Shown here in pieces: positions 33,911 through 39,848 of a DNA stretch of 47,424 nt (position 1 is the stretch's first letter; each line of letters opens with the position of its first letter). Source of the DNA: Bacteroidota bacterium (lineage in GTDB: Bacteria > Bacteroidota > Bacteroidia > Chitinophagales > JADIYW01); NCBI GenBank assembly GCA_020436225.1, contig JAGQYE010000089.1, forward strand, positions 1 through 47,424, read 5' to 3'. The position numbers were made by a program, and so were the translations under genes. The notes under the pieces were generated by a model. The model searched no databases, was not told the origin of the DNA, and saw only the letters and a program-made list of their open reading frames with translations.

Positions 33911-33936
33911 GCAGAGTCTCTCGAAGAGGACTCTGC
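33911..33936 (+). repeat. REP palindrome, copy A (forward)
   Basis: Core: arm GCAGAGTC, unpaired T, CTC-GAA-GAG inner hairpin, arm GACTCTGC. The left flank is CTA, the right flank GTACTTGAACGTCAAT. The single bulged T makes the palindrome imperfect, as in classical REP sequences. Confidence 0.85.
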
Positions 33937-33963
33937 GTACTTGAACGTCAATTTCACTTCCTA

Positions 33964-33989
33964 GCAGAGTCTCTCAAAGAGGACTCTGC
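33964..33989 (+). repeat. REP palindrome, copy B (forward)
   Basis: Same as copy A except that the inner loop is AAA (CTC-AAA-GAG). Left flank TTCCTA, right flank GTACTTGCGTAATTAAAC. What follows (to 34081) is a near copy of the sequence after copy G. Confidence 0.85.
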
Positions 33990-34035
33990 GTACTTGCGTA
34001 ATTAAACATCAATGTTTTTTCTTCCTGCTTTATAA

Positions 34036-34086
34036 CTGTTACAAAGTATCTTTAACTATCATGGAAAAAGAGGTATTAATTTATTC
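34036..34086 (+). pseudogene. Duplicated promoter and first codons of the AhpD-like gene
   Basis: TTATAAC, TTAC, AAGTATCTTTAACTATCATG and the following codons (M-E-K-E-V-L-I) repeat, with few changes, the promoter and start of the gene at 37012 (M-K-R-E-V-L-I). Similarity stops at about codon 8, just before REP copy C. It reads as a 5' stub of that gene, cut off when the RAYT block arrived, or as a partial duplication. The stub frame reads through copy C and stops at codon 21. Confidence 0.7.
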
Positions 34087-34089
34087 TAA

Positions 34090-34115
34090 GCAGAGTCTCT
34101 CGAAGAGGACTCTGC
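34090..34115 (+). repeat. REP palindrome, copy C (forward), 37 bp before the RAYT start
   Basis: Core identical to copy A. Right flank GTAATTGAACGTCAAT. This is the upstream REP of the RAYT unit. Confidence 0.85.
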
Positions 34116-34152
34116 GTAATTGAACGTCAATATTTTTTTTTAAATTCACATC

Positions 34153-34731
34153 ATGCCTACAAGAACGATTATTCCATACAACTACGGCATATTCTATATC
34201 ACCTTCACAAACTATAAATGGACTCCATTATTTGACATTACTAAATCGTATGATTTAGTATATAAGTGGTTTGATTATCTAATTGAAAATGGACATTATA
34301 TTATCGGATATGTAATCATGCCAAATCATATACACATTATTATAGGGTTCAAGAAAACAGGAAAATCAATCAATACGATTATTGGAAATGCAAAACGATT
34401 TTTAGCATATGGTATTATTGATAGATTAAAGAATCTAAATAAAATTGAATTATTGGAAAGATTGATGGATGGAGTTAAATATACAGATAAACAAAGGCGA
34501 AAACTACATGAAGTATTTGAAGAATCGTTTGACTGGAAAGAATGTTTGACAGATGATTTTATCAAGCAAAAATTAGATTATATCCACAATAATCCATGTA
34601 CTATTAAATGGAATTTAGTTAAAAATCCTTCAGATTACATTCATAGTTCAGCAGCGTTTTATATATTAGATAAAGAAAATAAACATGTAACCAACTTTTT
34701 GAAAATGCATGATATTGATTTAAGTACGTAA
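34153..34731 (+). CDS. REP-associated tyrosine transposase (RAYT, Y1/HUH superfamily)
   Basis: The 192-residue protein has the HUH-type metal-binding motif PNHIHIII (His59 and His61) after the strand YVIMPNH. The catalytic tyrosine is Tyr143 in LDYIHNNP, the classic YxHxNP motif of IS200/IS605-like Y1 transposases of the REP-associated branch. These enzymes cut and rejoin single-stranded REP hairpins and are single-copy domesticated relatives of TnpA. The gene is complete and is flanked by REP copy C upstream and inverted copy D downstream, as expected for a REPtron. Its 3' end recurs twice at 35617-35844. Confidence 0.93.
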   Translation: MPTRTIIPYNYGIFYITFTNYKWTPLFDITKSYDLVYKWFDYLIENGHYIIGYVIMPNHIHIIIGFKKTGKSINTIIGNAKRFLAYGIIDRLKNLNKIELLERLMDGVKYTDKQRRKLHEVFEESFDWKECLTDDFIKQKLDYIHNNPCTIKWNLVKNPSDYIHSSAAFYILDKENKHVTNFLKMHDIDLST

Positions 34732-34754
34732 AAAGTAGTAGTTGCAAAACTGAC

Positions 34755-34780
34755 GCAGAGTCCTCTACGAGAGACTCTGC
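34755..34780 (-). repeat. REP palindrome, copy D (reverse), 23 bp after the RAYT stop
   Basis: Reverse complement of the forward core with inner loop GTA. The side nearer the gene reads GTAGTTGCAAAACTGAC, a flank different from that of forward copies, so this family has two flank types. Confidence 0.85.
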
Positions 34781-34835
34781 TCAGAAGAAAATATAATCGG
34801 AAATATCATATTTTATGGGAGTAATTATTTTTTAC

Positions 34836-34866
34836 AATAAAAAACCCTTACTTATAGGTAAGGGTT
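34836..34866 (-). terminator. Rho-independent terminator of the minus-strand gene at 34891
   Basis: A 9-bp stem AACCCTTAC (34843-34851) with GTAAGGGTT (34858-34866); on the minus strand it is followed by TTTTTTATTG. Confidence 0.9.
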
Positions 34867-34890
34867 AAATTTACAAAATTTATTAAAGCA

Positions 34891-35391
34891 TTACTTTACT
34901 TCATAATTACCCAAAACTGGTATATTGGAAACTATTGTGTTTGGCGGAATAACAGCGGCTTCTCCTTTTTTAGCCATATACGCAAGCATTGGAACTAAAA
35001 ATGTTCCAAGCCCAACGCCTAAGCCTACACCCAATGCTTTTCCTTTATTGCTTTTACCCACTTTTGAATGTTTGCCATTCAATTTGATAAACTGACCGTC
35101 TGCAGATTCTGTAGATAGGATAGTAATATCTATAGTACCTGGTTTACCTACTCCTGAGCGTTTCTTTCTTTCAATATTAAATTTTACAGGTGTGCCTCCT
35201 TTTATCAATACTTTTCCTGTATTACTGATAACATCATGAGCAACCTGTATTGAAACGGTGTTTTCATTTTCGCTCGATACCTCATCAACAATTAATAAAT
35301 CAACCAGCGTTCCATTTTGTAAATTGAAATTGGTTTGCGCGTGTACTTTCAACATAGAAAGAACAAGAAATAAAAAAAATAGTTTTTTCAT
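34891..35391 (-). CDS. Secreted protein of unknown function with a glycine-rich membrane-like segment
   Basis: The 166-residue protein has a Sec signal (LFFLFLVLSMLKVHAQ). A beta-rich middle includes NLQNGTLVDLLIVDEV and a Lys-rich stretch. A glycine-zipper-like hydrophobic segment, ALGVGLGVGLGTFLVP, follows near residue 120, then AAVIPPNTIVSNIPV. I do not recognise the family. The gene lies between REP copies D and E, opposite in direction to the RAYT, with its own terminator. It may be a passenger captured by the REP region or an older resident. Confidence 0.7.
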   Translation of the reverse strand: MKKLFFLFLVLSMLKVHAQTNFNLQNGTLVDLLIVDEVSSENENTVSIQVAHDVISNTGKVLIKGGTPVKFNIERKKRSGVGKPGTIDITILSTESADGQFIKLNGKHSKVGKSNKGKALGVGLGVGLGTFLVPMLAYMAKKGEAAVIPPNTIVSNIPVLGNYEVK

Positions 35392-35481
35392 AATAAATTG
35401 GTATTAATTCCCTACCAGTTCCTAATAAGAAGATTATTAATTAAAAACGTGGAACTGCATTCTTCGCCGTTGATGCATCTC

Positions 35482-35543
35482 AAAGAACCTGACAGGCAAA
35501 TACGAACAATCCCACGTCGAGTGGTGATCGTCAGTTCTTTTTG
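35482..35543 (+). other. Structured-RNA-like nested inverted repeat
   Basis: An outer stem AAAGAACCTGAC (35482-35493) pairs with GTCAGTTCTTT (35530-35540), with one bulge. Inside, ATCCCAC and GTGGTGAT pair around GTCGA. The element ends in a T-run (TTCTTTTTG), so on the plus strand it could be a terminator or the 3' half of a small RNA. It lies about 90 bp upstream of the minus-strand gene and so could also act in that gene's regulatory region. No known family is recognised. Confidence 0.45.
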
Positions 35544-35616
35544 CTTACCAAATAGCATTTTGCGGTTTTCAACGACAAAAAAACGTCTTATATTTTAATA
35601 TTCAAATATAAGTAAT

Positions 35617-35645
35617 AAATGCATGATATTGATTTAAGTAAGTAA
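35617..35645 (+). pseudogene. RAYT 3'-end fragment 1
   Basis: AAATGCATGATATTGATTTA and the next bases repeat the last codons of the RAYT gene (K-M-H-D-I-D-L-S). The tail after it leads into REP copy E exactly as the true RAYT end leads into copy D. It is only about 29 bp long and non-coding. Confidence 0.75.
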
Positions 35646-35668
35646 AAAGTAGTTGTTGCAAAACTGAC

Positions 35669-35694
35669 GCAGAGTCCTCTTCGAGAGACTCTGC
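35669..35694 (-). repeat. REP palindrome, copy E (reverse)
   Basis: Both arms are as in copy D, with inner loop GAA. Left flank TTGTTGCAAAACTGAC, right flank TGGGAAAA. Confidence 0.85.
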
Positions 35695-35703
35695 TGGGAA
35701 AAA

Positions 35704-35844
35704 AATCCATGTACTATTAAATGGAATTTAGTTAATAATCCTTCAGATTACATTCATAGTTCAGCAGCGTTTTATATATTAGATAAAGAAAATAAGCACC
35801 TAACCAACTTTATGAAAATGCATGATATTGATTTAAGTACGTAA
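35704..35844 (+). pseudogene. RAYT 3'-end fragment 2 (46 codons)
   Basis: An in-frame copy of residues 147-192 of the intact RAYT, from N-P-C-T-I-K-W to the same stop, with a handful of changes (for example K-H-V to K-H-L and F-L-K to F-M-K). It begins just after the catalytic Tyr and the first Asn of YIHNNP, has no start codon, and so cannot give a functional enzyme. REP copy F follows at the same distance as copy D follows the intact gene. Confidence 0.9.
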
Positions 35845-35867
35845 AAAGGAGTAGTTGCAAAACTGAC

Positions 35868-35893
35868 GCAGAGTCCTCTGCGAGAGACTCTGC
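35868..35893 (-). repeat. REP palindrome, copy F (reverse)
   Basis: Arms as in copies D and E; inner loop GCA. Left flank GTAGTTGCAAAACTGAC, right flank TGGGAAAAAGAAAG. Confidence 0.85.
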
Positions 35894-36017
35894 TGGGAAA
35901 AAGAAAGAAATTTTTATAATTAGATAAGGCCTGTGTCTATTCAAACCTTATCTTAAGTGTGTTTACTTTATTGTAAATATTAGTTGTATATTTAGTAAAA
36001 TAATCCAATAATATAAA

Positions 36018-36902
36018 ATGGAATATATGAGAATTAAGATAATAATTTTAAGCTCCTTAGTATTTTTCATGTCTTATGTACATGGTGAATCCAATTCTTA
36101 TATTGTTCCATTTGAACTAACACAAAGTGGGCATATTCTTGTTACTGCAAAAATAAATGGAAGAGAAGGGCGATTTATTTTTGATACAGGTGCAGGAATA
36201 AATCTATTAATAAAAAAGTTTGCAGATAAAACTCCGAATTTAGAAAAGTCAGAACATTTTTATACGGGACATAGGTCAACAGGAGAAGAATTAATGATGG
36301 ATATTTGGAAATTAAATAATTTACAAATCGGTAAATTTAGTGCAACAAATGAGATATGTTCGGTATATGATATAGATTTCCCATTTGATGGACTGATTTC
36401 ATTAACTCCATTCTTGTCAACACCAATTACAATTGATTTTCTAAATAAACAATTAATTATTGAAACAAAAAGATCCATAAAAAAAAGGATTTCATCTGCT
36501 GATTATCAAATTCCAATTAAGATTCATAATGATAAAGGAATATCAATAGATATTGCAACAAACATAAAATTAAATGATACACTTGATTTGCTCGTTAATT
36601 TAGATAGTGGTTCTGGATTTGGTTCATATAAATTTAATTATAGGTATATGAGCAACCTGAACATTGACACTTCGAATGTAAAAAAGATAGAAAGAGAAAG
36701 TATGTTTAAATCAGGTTATTATAATACACATTATTTTACTAAAGTGAATCAACTTAGTGATATTAATAACAATGTAATTACGAAGCAGATAAATGCTCAA
36801 TTTATTACAGGATTAATATATGAAGGAATAGTAGGAATAAATTGGATTGGCAGCATTATAACTTTCGATTTAGCCAACAAAAGATTAATTGTAAAGAAAT
36901 AG
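36018..36902 (+). CDS. Exported aspartic protease of the retropepsin-like/pepsin-like clan
   Basis: The 294-residue protein has a Sec signal (IKIIILSSLVFFMSYVHG). Two acidic motifs are visible: GRFIFDTGAGINLLI (D-T-G, near residue 57) and LVNLDSGSGFG (D-S-G, near residue 195). Each is followed by a hydrophobic-hydrophobic-glycine region (FDGLISLTPF and YEGIVGINWIGS). This is the layout of bacterial single-chain aspartyl proteases with two lobes. Substrates are unknown. ATG 36018 or ATG 36027 can start it; the second gives a tighter signal peptide. It lies between REP copies F and G and may be passenger DNA. Confidence 0.75.
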   Translation: MEYMRIKIIILSSLVFFMSYVHGESNSYIVPFELTQSGHILVTAKINGREGRFIFDTGAGINLLIKKFADKTPNLEKSEHFYTGHRSTGEELMMDIWKLNNLQIGKFSATNEICSVYDIDFPFDGLISLTPFLSTPITIDFLNKQLIIETKRSIKKRISSADYQIPIKIHNDKGISIDIATNIKLNDTLDLLVNLDSGSGFGSYKFNYRYMSNLNIDTSNVKKIERESMFKSGYYNTHYFTKVNQLSDINNNVITKQINAQFITGLIYEGIVGINWIGSIITFDLANKRLIVKK

Positions 36903-36930
36903 GATATTTAGACGTAGTTTTTTCTTCCTA

Positions 36931-36956
36931 GCAAAGTCTCTCAAAGAGGACTCTGC
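36931..36956 (+). repeat. REP palindrome, copy G (forward, slightly decayed)
   Basis: As copy B, but the left arm is GCAAAGTC (one G to A), which breaks one pair. Left flank TTCCTA, right flank GTAATTGAACATCAATG. Confidence 0.8.
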
Positions 36957-36997
36957 GTAATTGAACATCAATGTTTTACTTTATAACAGTTACGAAG

Positions 36998-37005
36998 TAT
37001 CTTTA
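36998..37005 (+). promoter_or_regulatory. -7 box TATCTTTA of the AhpD-like gene
   Basis: One mismatch to TAnnTTTG. It ends 6 bp before ATG 37012. The same box occurs in the upstream duplicate at 34047-34054. Confidence 0.55.
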
Positions 37006-37011
37006 ACTATC

Positions 37012-37638
37012 ATGAAAAGAGAGGTATTAATTCCTGAAAATGGTTGGATAAAAACGGAAGTGAAATTTGCTGCTTCTAATACAAAAATCCAAGCTGTTTC
37101 ATTTCGTGCATTTACACAAATATCCAAAGCATTAGGACGAAATTCCTTACCGGATATTTTTAAAGTGCTTTCCGTCAATCTATCTATTTTTTGGCGGTGG
37201 CTTTTATTCGCATCTCGATTGATGCCTTATGGAAAACTTTCCGCAAGAGAACGCGAACTGATTATTTTGCGCGTAGCTTGGTTGTGTAAATCAAGATATG
37301 AATGGGGACAACATATAGAAATTGGACAACGAATGGCGCATTTATCCGACCAAGATATTATACAAATCACAATTGGCGCAACGGCATTTTTTTCGAGTAA
37401 AGAACAACTCTTGCTTACCGCTTGCGATGAATTTATCCAACATAAAAGCATTCAAAAAAACACGTGGAAAAAATTAGCCCAACACTACCAGCAAGCCATA
37501 TTGTTGGAAATCTCTTTTTTAATAGGACACTACGAAATGTTGGCAGGTATTTTAAATAGTATCGGTTTGGAATTAGAATCTGATATCGAAAGCAATTATC
37601 AAGCGTTTAATAATAGAATAGAAGGGTTGCTAAAATAA
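37012..37638 (+). CDS. Carboxymuconolactone decarboxylase/AhpD-like family protein
   Basis: The 208-residue, all-helical soluble protein has the family core LSARERELIILRVAWLCKSR followed by YEWGQHIEIGQRM. The typical CxxC of AhpD is replaced by a single Cys and the YEWxxH pattern of the decarboxylase-like branch. A second conserved patch is SSKEQLLLTACDEF. The reaction is unknown; relatives include peroxidase-like and lactone decarboxylase enzymes. The ATG at 37012 is chosen because the promoter box lies just before it; an upstream TTG (36961) is inside the promoter region. Its 5' end is duplicated at 34036-34086. Confidence 0.85.
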   Translation: MKREVLIPENGWIKTEVKFAASNTKIQAVSFRAFTQISKALGRNSLPDIFKVLSVNLSIFWRWLLFASRLMPYGKLSARERELIILRVAWLCKSRYEWGQHIEIGQRMAHLSDQDIIQITIGATAFFSSKEQLLLTACDEFIQHKSIQKNTWKKLAQHYQQAILLEISFLIGHYEMLAGILNSIGLELESDIESNYQAFNNRIEGLLK

Positions 37639-37695
37639 AACTGAATTAAGTTGTTTTGCGGTTTAATTTAGCAATCAAATTTTTTATTTAATTGA

Positions 37696-37760
37696 TTATC
37701 AAGTTGAACCTTTTGTCACTTTTTTCTTAGTCAAAAAAAGTAACCAAAAAAGACAAGGCA
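37696..37760 (-). repeat. Probable dispersed repeat of the KKKVT type
   Basis: Read on the minus strand, the stretch encodes a short open segment of the kind LFWLLFLTKKKVTKG, with GGTTACTTTTTTTGACTAAG at its centre. I have seen similar short LTKKKVT-like stretches scattered in Bacteroidota genomes, but only one copy is in this window. The rest of 37639-37897 holds no gene. Confidence 0.3.
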
Positions 37761-37897
37761 ATAATATCGCTCCACGCTTTTAGCCACGCTTTGCTGGCGA
37801 TTTTTGCCGTGCCACGCTTCTCTACATTGCGCTTGTTCCAGCTTTTTTACTTCTTTATTCTGTTACATCGAAATTCATACCGCACAACGTATTAGAA

Positions 37898-38743
37898 TTA
37901 CACTTTAAATGCTTTTTGAAAATAATCATTCATCACTTGCAACACCCAATCAGAGGCAAACGTGAATTTATTTTTGCCCCAAAATCCAAACTTTATATCC
38001 GGCGATGTAAAAATATAATAATCATTTTTTACAATGCCTTTTATAATAGCTTGAGCCGCTTGCTCCGGACTAACAGCATGTTTTTGAAATTGATTTTTTA
38101 ATTTATTGAATTGTTCATCCGTAATTTCAATGCCGGAAACTTTGATGGTTTTCACCAAGCCGGTATCTACCGCTCCAGGGCAGACCAAATGCACTTTTAT
38201 TTTGTGTCGTTTTAAATCGTAACGCAACACATCCGACAAGCCGCGCAAGCCGTATTTACTGGCACAATACGCACCGTGCCATGGCAAACCAAACAGTGCA
38301 GCAGCTGATGCCACGTTCACTAAGTTTCCGCCTTTCTTAGCTTCCATCATCTTTGGTAAAAAAGATTCAATGATGTGTATTGGTCCCATTAGGTTGACAT
38401 CTATGACTTGCTTCCACTCGTGGTGTTGCATTTTATCTACTGCGCCCCAAATGGCAATGCCCGCAATATTCATCACGATATCTACACTTCCAAATTCTGC
38501 ATGAATCGTATTGGCATATTGTTGCACTTGTTCAAAGTCGGCTACGTTTAATGCCGTTGCATCGGCAACTTGTCCGCCATTTTGTTTGATGTCTTCGGCT
38601 GTTTTTTCTAATGCTGATGCTTGGATGTCGGTTAGAAAAAGTATAGCACCTAACTGCGCTAATTCCATGGCAACAGCTTTACCTATGCCGCTGGCAGCGC
38701 CTGTAATCAAACATTTTTTTTGTTGGAAATAGTTTGTTTTCAA
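37898..38743 (-). CDS. SDR family NAD(P)-dependent oxidoreductase
   Basis: The 281-residue protein has a Rossmann fold with nucleotide motif GAASGIGKAVA (TGxxxGIG type), a following Asp (FLTDIQA, suggesting NAD+ preference), NIAGIAIWG, the catalytic Ser in NVASAAALFG, and YCASKYGLRG (YxxxK). These make it a classical short-chain dehydrogenase/reductase. The C-terminal 80 residues (ISPEQAAQAIIKGI-like segment, then FGFWGKNKFTF) match SDRs of uncertain substrate. It starts 9 bp after the DUF6370 gene ends, so the two probably share a transcript. Confidence 0.92.
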   Translation of the reverse strand: MKTNYFQQKKCLITGAASGIGKAVAMELAQLGAILFLTDIQASALEKTAEDIKQNGGQVADATALNVADFEQVQQYANTIHAEFGSVDIVMNIAGIAIWGAVDKMQHHEWKQVIDVNLMGPIHIIESFLPKMMEAKKGGNLVNVASAAALFGLPWHGAYCASKYGLRGLSDVLRYDLKRHKIKVHLVCPGAVDTGLVKTIKVSGIEITDEQFNKLKNQFQKHAVSPEQAAQAIIKGIVKNDYYIFTSPDIKFGFWGKNKFTFASDWVLQVMNDYFQKAFKV

Positions 38744-39348: not shown

Positions 39349-39567
39349 ATGATAGCAATCGTAAAAAACGAATTACTTTCCAAAATCCAGAATAGCGATG
39401 ACGAGATTTTGTTAAAACAAATTTCATTATTATTGGATGGCAATCAGGTAATGAAATTAAACAAACATGAAAAGAATGCAATTGATGAAGCTGTGGAAGC
39501 AGTGAAAAACAATCAATTCAGTTCTGATGAAGAATTTCAAAAAGAATGGGATAAATGGGTAGGATAG
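39349..39567 (+). CDS. Antitoxin of a RelE/ParE-type toxin-antitoxin pair
   Basis: The 72-residue acidic protein contains LNKHEKNAIDEAVEAVKNN followed by FSSDEEFQKEWDKW, the pattern of small RelB-like or addiction-module antitoxins of Bacteroidota whose C-terminal helix wraps the toxin. The N-terminal part (LLSKIQNSDDEILLKQISLLL) is helical and may dimerise; no clear ribbon-helix-helix is seen. It overlaps the toxin gene by 13 bp, typical of coupled pairs. Confidence 0.8.
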   Translation: MIAIVKNELLSKIQNSDDEILLKQISLLLDGNQVMKLNKHEKNAIDEAVEAVKNNQFSSDEEFQKEWDKWVG

Positions 39568-39848
39568 TCATCTGGTCAGCACCCGCACAAAAAGACATAA
39601 AAGAAATCACTACTTATTGGAATATCCGTAATAAAAGCAATACATATTCGCACAAACTCAGAAGTATTATCAGAGATAAATTAGATATTATAAAAATATT
39701 CCCGTTCATAGGAATTCAAACAGACCACCAAGATGCAAGATGTTTTATCATTAGTGATTACAAGTTGTTTTATGTAATTAAAGATGAAACCATAATTGTT
39801 TTGCGACTTTGGGACACACGTCAAAATCCTGAAAAGTTTAAATTATAA
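39555..39848 (+). CDS. RelE/ParE family toxin
   Basis: The 97-residue basic protein has the RelE/ParE pattern: beta strand IVIWSAPAQKDIKEITTYW, the helix RSIIRDKLDIIKIFPFIG, DARCFIISDYKLFYVIKDE, then IIVLRLWDTRQNPEKF at the end, which is the usual finish in this family. It either cleaves mRNA on the ribosome (RelE-type) or poisons gyrase (ParE-type); the sequence does not decide. ATG 39555 is the only sensible start. Confidence 0.88.
   Translation: MGRIVIWSAPAQKDIKEITTYWNIRNKSNTYSHKLRSIIRDKLDIIKIFPFIGIQTDHQDARCFIISDYKLFYVIKDETIIVLRLWDTRQNPEKFKL

Follow-up and report, generated by a model that had tools for sequence, protein, structure and literature searches.

A bulged-hairpin REP family tied to one divergent RAYT clade in Bacteroidota, with copies fixed at one end

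Does a single transposase gene account for the palindromes that surround it, and for those of the same kind scattered through the rest of its genome? The question is raised by a locus in a Bacteroidota bacterium (assembly GCA_020436225.1, 2.69 Mb, called G000 here; other G numbers denote compared genomes and C numbers contigs), within a window of 47,424 nucleotides (nt). Here, an intact gene for a repetitive extragenic palindrome (REP)-associated tyrosine transposase (RAYT) stands among bulged palindromes on either side of it. We are confident, if short of certain, that this is a REP/RAYT system of a divergent clade whose hairpins would be spread by single-strand cleavage at their 5' foot, and the single RAYT gene probably spreads the scattered hairpins. 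Direct support comes from the anatomy of the locus, the copies across the genome, the co-variation of the stems, the restriction of this hairpin build to one RAYT clade, the contrast between constant outer and varying inner ends among the copies and the T found at insertion junctions in genome G078.

A reading of the same window from its sequence only had described seven bulged 26-nt palindromes, with the intact RAYT gene, its His59/His61 and its Tyr143 between the third and the fourth. All seven positions and strands are confirmed, dinucleotide shuffles of the window give no match, and coordinates and motifs bear out the placement of the gene. The two flank types were also rightly seen: REPs A, B, C and G run on as GTA(A/C)TTG..., and D, E and F as GTCAGTTTTGCAAC.... 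The list of seven was real but incomplete, as an eighth REP with a CAC inner stem lies at 273-298. REPs E and F are each preceded by a duplicated segment from the 3' end of the RAYT gene. The features of the system in the window are as follows.

34153..34731, + strand: intact RAYT gene (TnpAREP-like Y1 transposase), 192 amino acids (aa), with H59/H61 and Y143, and with F122-E123 in place of the usual W-Q
33911-33936, + strand: REP A, CTC-GAA-GAG, left-end flank
33964-33989, + strand: REP B, CTC-AAA-GAG
34090-34115, + strand: REP C, CTC-GAA-GAG, the closest REP upstream of the RAYT gene (left end)
34755-34780, - strand: REP D, CTC-GTA-GAG, the closest REP downstream of the RAYT gene (right end)
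35669-35694, - strand: REP E, CTC-GAA-GAG
35868-35893, - strand: REP F, CTC-GCA-GAG
36931-36956, + strand: REP G, CTC-AAA-GAG, with a single mismatch in the arm
273-298, + strand: eighth REP, of the CAC-ATC-GTG type, missed by the sequence-only reading
34080..34089, + strand: TTTATTCTAA, the 5' foot of REP C, which forms the outer end of the left unit
34781..34790, - strand: TTTCTTCTGA (read on the - strand), the 5' foot of REP D, which forms the outer end of the right unit
34735..34754, - strand: right-end inner flank, GTCAGTTTTGCAACTACT..., common to dispersed copies on contigs C54, C60 and C69
35617..35668, + strand: copy of the last ~50 nt of the RAYT 3' region, joined to REP E
35701..35867, + strand: copy (93%) of the last ~167 nt of the RAYT 3' region, joined to REP F and coding for 48 aa that are 90% identical
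34028..34081, + strand: duplicate (93%) of 36979-37032, the 5' end of a CMD-family gene that lies downstream; the similarity stops at 34081/34082, immediately beyond the foot of REP C

The protein encoded at the locus carries an HuH motif (N58-H59-I60-H61) and a single catalytic tyrosine (Y143) in a Y1 fold, the combination expected of a RAYT, or TnpAREP, within the HuH Y1 family. It matches NF047646, the NCBI model for REP-associated tyrosine transposases, with an E value of 4.2e-17 and 62 bits, under the curated cut-off of 80 bits, and Pfam Y1_Tnp (PF01797) with an E value of 7e-4; a PDB sequence search found no relative. Its nearest named loci belong to Cytophagales and Chitinophagaceae metagenome-assembled genomes, and it is on these carriers that the analysis bases the placement of the host in Bacteroidota. 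The top PDB fold match of an AlphaFold2 model (five-sequence input, mean pLDDT 76) is 4er8, the complex of Escherichia coli TnpAREP with its REP, followed by the ISDra2 and IS608 transposases, with 2xma among the best matches. The protein is thus predicted to be an HuH/Y1 single-strand endonuclease, a prediction that shares the confidence we place in the REP/RAYT explanation as a whole.

The palindromes are not confined to the neighborhood of the gene. A pattern search of G000 returned 40-44 REP copies, with none in the reversed control, and a covariance-model search (E <= 0.01) returned 53 copies at 30 sites on 21 contigs, of which 48 overlap no open reading frame (ORF) of at least 100 aa. 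The RAYT gene is therefore flanked by REPs that recur in intergenic DNA, as is characteristic of this family. Three inner-stem types occur among the copies, CTC/GAG, CTT/AAG and CAC/GTG, and they represent paired changes, with 30 cells altered on both sides compared to 11.6 expected from shuffles. The CTC type is the one that adjoins the RAYT gene, and about 28 of the 45 aligned copies are of the CTT or CAC types. Copies of these two types lie close together in inverted pairs; C131 carries four such pairs in tandem, C10 has two, and genome-wide there are 11 adjacent pairs in opposite orientation no more than 200 nt apart, with a shortest spacer of 4 nt between model ends. Two inverted REPs at a short distance are what defines a REP doublet forming a hairpin (REPIN) or a bacterial interspersed mosaic element (BIME).

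Copy number follows the presence of the gene. No orthologous full-length RAYT was found in seven congeners, which hold 0-6 REP copies at the threshold used for G000, compared to its 53; the copies in these RAYT-lacking relatives are few and worn. The REP/RAYT interpretation is supported in that neither of the outcomes named beforehand as speaking against it, a lack of other copies in the genome or equal numbers in relatives without the gene, was found. The nearest congener, G005, has the same asnS-to-CMD gene junction as G000 without the 3-kb RAYT region, and retains one degenerate REP where G000 has REP A. Judging from this orthologous site, the REPs are older than the split of the two species.

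To put the hairpin into a broader perspective, RAYTs 38-59% identical were gathered, both among relatives and in a wider sampling of the class, and their flanks were scanned for any hairpin. Nearly all of them have a flanking hairpin of shared build, that is, 8 bp, one bulged base, 3-4 bp and a 3-nt loop, in which the outer stem ends in GTC/GAC and the unpaired base, mostly T, sits on the 5' arm; some loops are longer. Across 17 hairpins from 16 RAYT loci, nine of the 11 stem pairs are changed on both sides, a co-variation score that none of 500 shuffles reaches and that slid controls do not approach (at most 0.13 compared to 0.59). The 100% pairing in this alignment arises from the way the hairpins were selected and is not counted as evidence, whereas the compensatory changes are. 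The sequence-only reading had considered the hairpin to be under selection on the strength of conserved arms around variable loop bases; identical arms in recent copies do not show this on their own, and it is the paired changes in the inner stem and among related RAYT loci that do. Likewise, its variable loop bases do differ between copies but are not free, the third base being A in 42 of 47. Loops among the 17 hairpins are mostly GNA (12, with two ANA), and GNA loops are reported to form unusually stable DNA mini-hairpins (PMC4686876), which fits a hairpin that works as single-stranded DNA.

This architecture belongs to one branch of the family. When hairpin shape is mapped onto a tree of 57 RAYTs, the bulged hairpins, 26 in number, all fall within one clade (support 99/99) and the 12 perfect-stem hairpins, several of them holding GTAG...CTAC, fall outside it. 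The 17 hairpins were used to build a cross-family model. Among genomes that have a RAYT of this clade, 21 of 23 contain matches to it, compared to one of 22 that have none (45 genomes; Fisher, 1.5e-9), so that hairpin architecture tracks the RAYT clade. This test is partly circular, since some genomes supplied hairpins to the model, and the circularity is answered by the held-out genomes that supplied none, with matches in eight of 10 RAYT-positive genomes compared to one of 22 (3.6e-5).

What would such an enzyme recognize? Canonical REPs bear GT[AG]G at their 5' foot (PMC6006769, PMC8266576). The foot in G000 lacks this motif and is T-rich with a TTCCCA-like end, having T at -10 (44/47), T at -6 (44/47), T at -5 (45/47) and A at -1 (45/47), two of the 47 copies counted being reverse readings. 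Feet in other families are pyrimidine-rich as well (TTCCCA, GTCCCA, GTCCCC, TTCTCC, GCTCCC and similar). On the protein side, the GTAG-region residues of E. coli TnpAREP are W94, Q95, E100, H101 and R104 (PMC6006769); the aligned residues in the window RAYT are F122, E123, W128, K129 and L132, so that all five are replaced, and the alignment places WQ in no member of the bulged-hairpin clade. As far as the aligned sequences tell, the change of foot and the loss of the GTAG-region residues coincide, and we infer that one of them may have caused the other.

The ends of dispersed copies suggest how they arose. Among the right-end CTC copies of G000, the inner flank held in common with the RAYT end measures 9 nt (three copies, C54), 19 nt (two, C60), 31 nt (C69), 52 nt (REP E) or 167 nt (REP F), and right-end copies in G007 share 50 and 140 nt. 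On the outer side, similarity stops within ~17 nt in most right-end copies. The copies thus have a constant end, at the foot, and an opposite end that varies. The same asymmetry can be read on the left in G078, where three RAYT copies (97-99% identical) occupy three loci with the same left boundary and left-end fragments nearly all start at the foot and stop variously, as the hairpin only, after 43 RAYT codons or with the whole gene. At seven sites, this genome also carries a full-length REPIN, 201-203 nt long, whose outer ends are sharp (AAT-TCCCAGC ... GCTGGGA-A). By manual reading, the base immediately 5' of the insert is T at the six G078 junctions whose intact target is known from another copy (CTGATT, GGCCT, CACCT, GCGT, AAAAT and GTCAT). 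In G000, the duplicated start of the CMD gene remains recognizable up to a TTAATT that lies right before the foot of REP C.

For the steps that would produce such copies we propose a model in which binding, cleavage position, covalent intermediate and strand transfer are all inferred. The RAYT would recognize its own hairpin (8-bp stem, bulged T, 3-bp stem and NNA loop) together with the pyrimidine-rich 5' foot of ~8-10 nt, and would cleave most likely at the outer edge of the foot, next to T. When HuH enzymes cut a strand, they retain its 5' phosphate (PMC8266576); in the window RAYT, Tyr143 would hold the strand comprising foot and hairpin and running inward, and the held end would be joined to the 3' OH of a new site, directly 3' of a T. 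At its far end, the new copy might then carry another REP in inverted orientation, which makes it a REPIN, or it might stop anywhere in the adjoining DNA, which makes it a REP with a RAYT 3' tail. Cutting at the outer foot and joining at T would leave a fixed outer end and a free inner one. More tentatively, and as a possibility to which we give somewhat less than even weight, a distinct RAYT clade may have dropped GTAG recognition in favor of a TCCCA-type foot and a T-bulged, GNA-loop hairpin, with one-ended strand transfer that places the foot 3' of T and leaves variable RAYT-gene tails.

The RAYT and its flanking REPs could instead be a true IS200/IS605-type insertion sequence that moves whole, the scattered REPs being its internal-deletion derivatives. 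The near-identical G078 copies with their common left boundary and the absence of the G000 RAYT region from the orthologous G005 site both speak for this, and there is a general likeness to IS608 and ISDra2, namely, an HuH/Y1 enzyme, subterminal hairpins with an irregular stem and insertion 3' of a fixed short target, the analogue of the junction T described here. Yet, G000 has one intact RAYT for its 53 REPs, its copies far exceeding the gene; the unit is bounded by REPs in inverted orientation, whereas both ends of an IS200/IS605 element are read on the same strand; no tnpB is seen at the locus; and the CTT and CAC copies, more than half of those aligned, are not deletion products of a CTC unit. 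We therefore consider a mobile unit of this kind unlikely. Less probable still is that the palindromes are mainly transcription terminators or stabilizers of mRNA ends, spread by recombination and not by the RAYT. Their distribution would suit such a role, since 14 of the 25 sites with both neighbors known lie between convergent genes and two between divergent ones (manual count), but no T run follows the hairpin on either strand, the T-rich foot lying 5' of it, the architecture follows the RAYT clade across genomes, and the mostly GNA loops are of the kind that is very stable in DNA. As for a miniature inverted-repeat transposable element (MITE) of an ordinary DDE transposon with the RAYT adjacent by chance, the inverted pairs and AT-rich flanks are MITE-like; still, the hairpin build co-segregates with the RAYT clade and adjoins the RAYT in most genomes of that clade, and we give this explanation hardly any credence.

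Several observations weigh against a RAYT that spreads its hairpins by one-ended transfer. The variable tails could have arisen through tandem duplication or deletion between REPs, and recombination between REPs is the main alternative origin for them. A different RAYT may have left the CTT and CAC copies behind as relics. Two RAYT-positive genomes, G053 and G293, show no match to the cross-family model. No clean filled/empty pair was found for a single REP in G000: the only orthologous site read, asnS in G005, lacks the RAYT region yet already has its degenerate REP, and the REPIN at C8:9998-10083 coincides with a synteny break, its two flanks mapping to different contigs in G003, G004 and G005. 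The REP flanks on C131 and C8 have no synteny in G003-G005, so that the asnS site alone is informative.

G000 contains a second, divergent RAYT (C50; 180-695 of the stretch L044), which scores above the NF047646 cut-off. It is flanked by two perfect palindromes, TTGACGGGTC-TTGT-GACCCGTCAA, that occur nowhere else in the genome (two copies compared to 53), and it was rejected as the source of the REPs since its own palindrome differs and occurs only twice. A further palindrome, ATTCCCGCTTCTGCGGGAAT with GACATT, is found inside REPIN spacers of G000 (C54:1-700, C60 and C19) and also in G005, at the site that corresponds to the RAYT region of G000; we take it to resemble the dRS3 repeat of Neisseria. 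Among the compared genomes, G420 has a RAYT followed by a tight array of at least nine bulged REPs at ~40-nt spacing (C237:3456-4805) and 98 matches to the cross-family model in all, and a RAYT gene of the clade in G078 (C36) is cut after 43 codons by a 203-nt REPIN, its remainder not being found in the next kilobase. Within the window, a retropepsin-like aspartyl protease gene (PF13650; 36018-36902) lies between REP F and REP G and is absent from the orthologous G005 site. A ParE-family toxin ORF (39349-39848) overlaps a short ORF ahead of it, placed where an antitoxin gene is usually found. An AT-rich intergenic repeat (37653-37898) has several partial copies in G000 (C51, C80, C85 and C127); of the seven other members of the genus, five hold many more.

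How new is this system? The sequence-only reading had presented it as a new case for Bacteroidota, which overstates the matter: REP-like structures that adjoin TnpAREP genes of Bacteroidetes and have further genomic copies were published in 2018 (PMC6006769, subclass 2.6, equal to RAYT group 5), so Bacteroidetes REPs were already known in outline. The window RAYT shares with this mostly Bacteroidetes subclass the NH[LIV]H, YIH[QN]NP and SS motifs (NHIH, YIHNNP and HSSA in the window) and flanking REP-like structures that lack GT[AG]G and recur in the genome. It differs in having F122-E123 where the subclass has WQ, a comparison made with the published consensus, and in that the subclass structures were called weak and atypical (PMC6006769), whereas the clade described here has a defined bulged hairpin. 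With the E. coli REP/BIME system and its RayT (subclass 2.2, 4er8) it has in common the HuH/Y1 fold, a bulged imperfect palindrome, inverted pairs and several REP subtypes per genome; the GTAG foot and the five GTAG-region residues of E. coli are both missing from the window, and the bulge is a single T instead of a two-base mismatch (PMC8266576). REPs of group 3 RAYTs from Stenotrophomonas and Marinomonas (PMC8266576) resemble those of the window in being short hairpins whose loop is small and includes a base that matters, but their stems are perfect and carry GTAG, while the window REPs are bulged and have none. What is added here is a bulged hairpin of defined build that co-segregates with a single clade, together with its foot and the copies fixed at one end, of which we found no description in the literature searched, itself of partial coverage.

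The spread of REPs was still called poorly understood in 2021 work on TnpAREP (PMC8266576), whose experiments, in the parts of that paper considered here, concern groups 2 and 3 only, all with GTAG. The present clade offers a recognition code of another kind; across ~20 genomes, its hairpins have changed along with the enzyme, making the code testable by swapping feet and hairpins. Moreover, its readable junctions, with a fixed outer end, a T target and variable tails, turn the dispersal of REPs into a concrete, falsifiable model.

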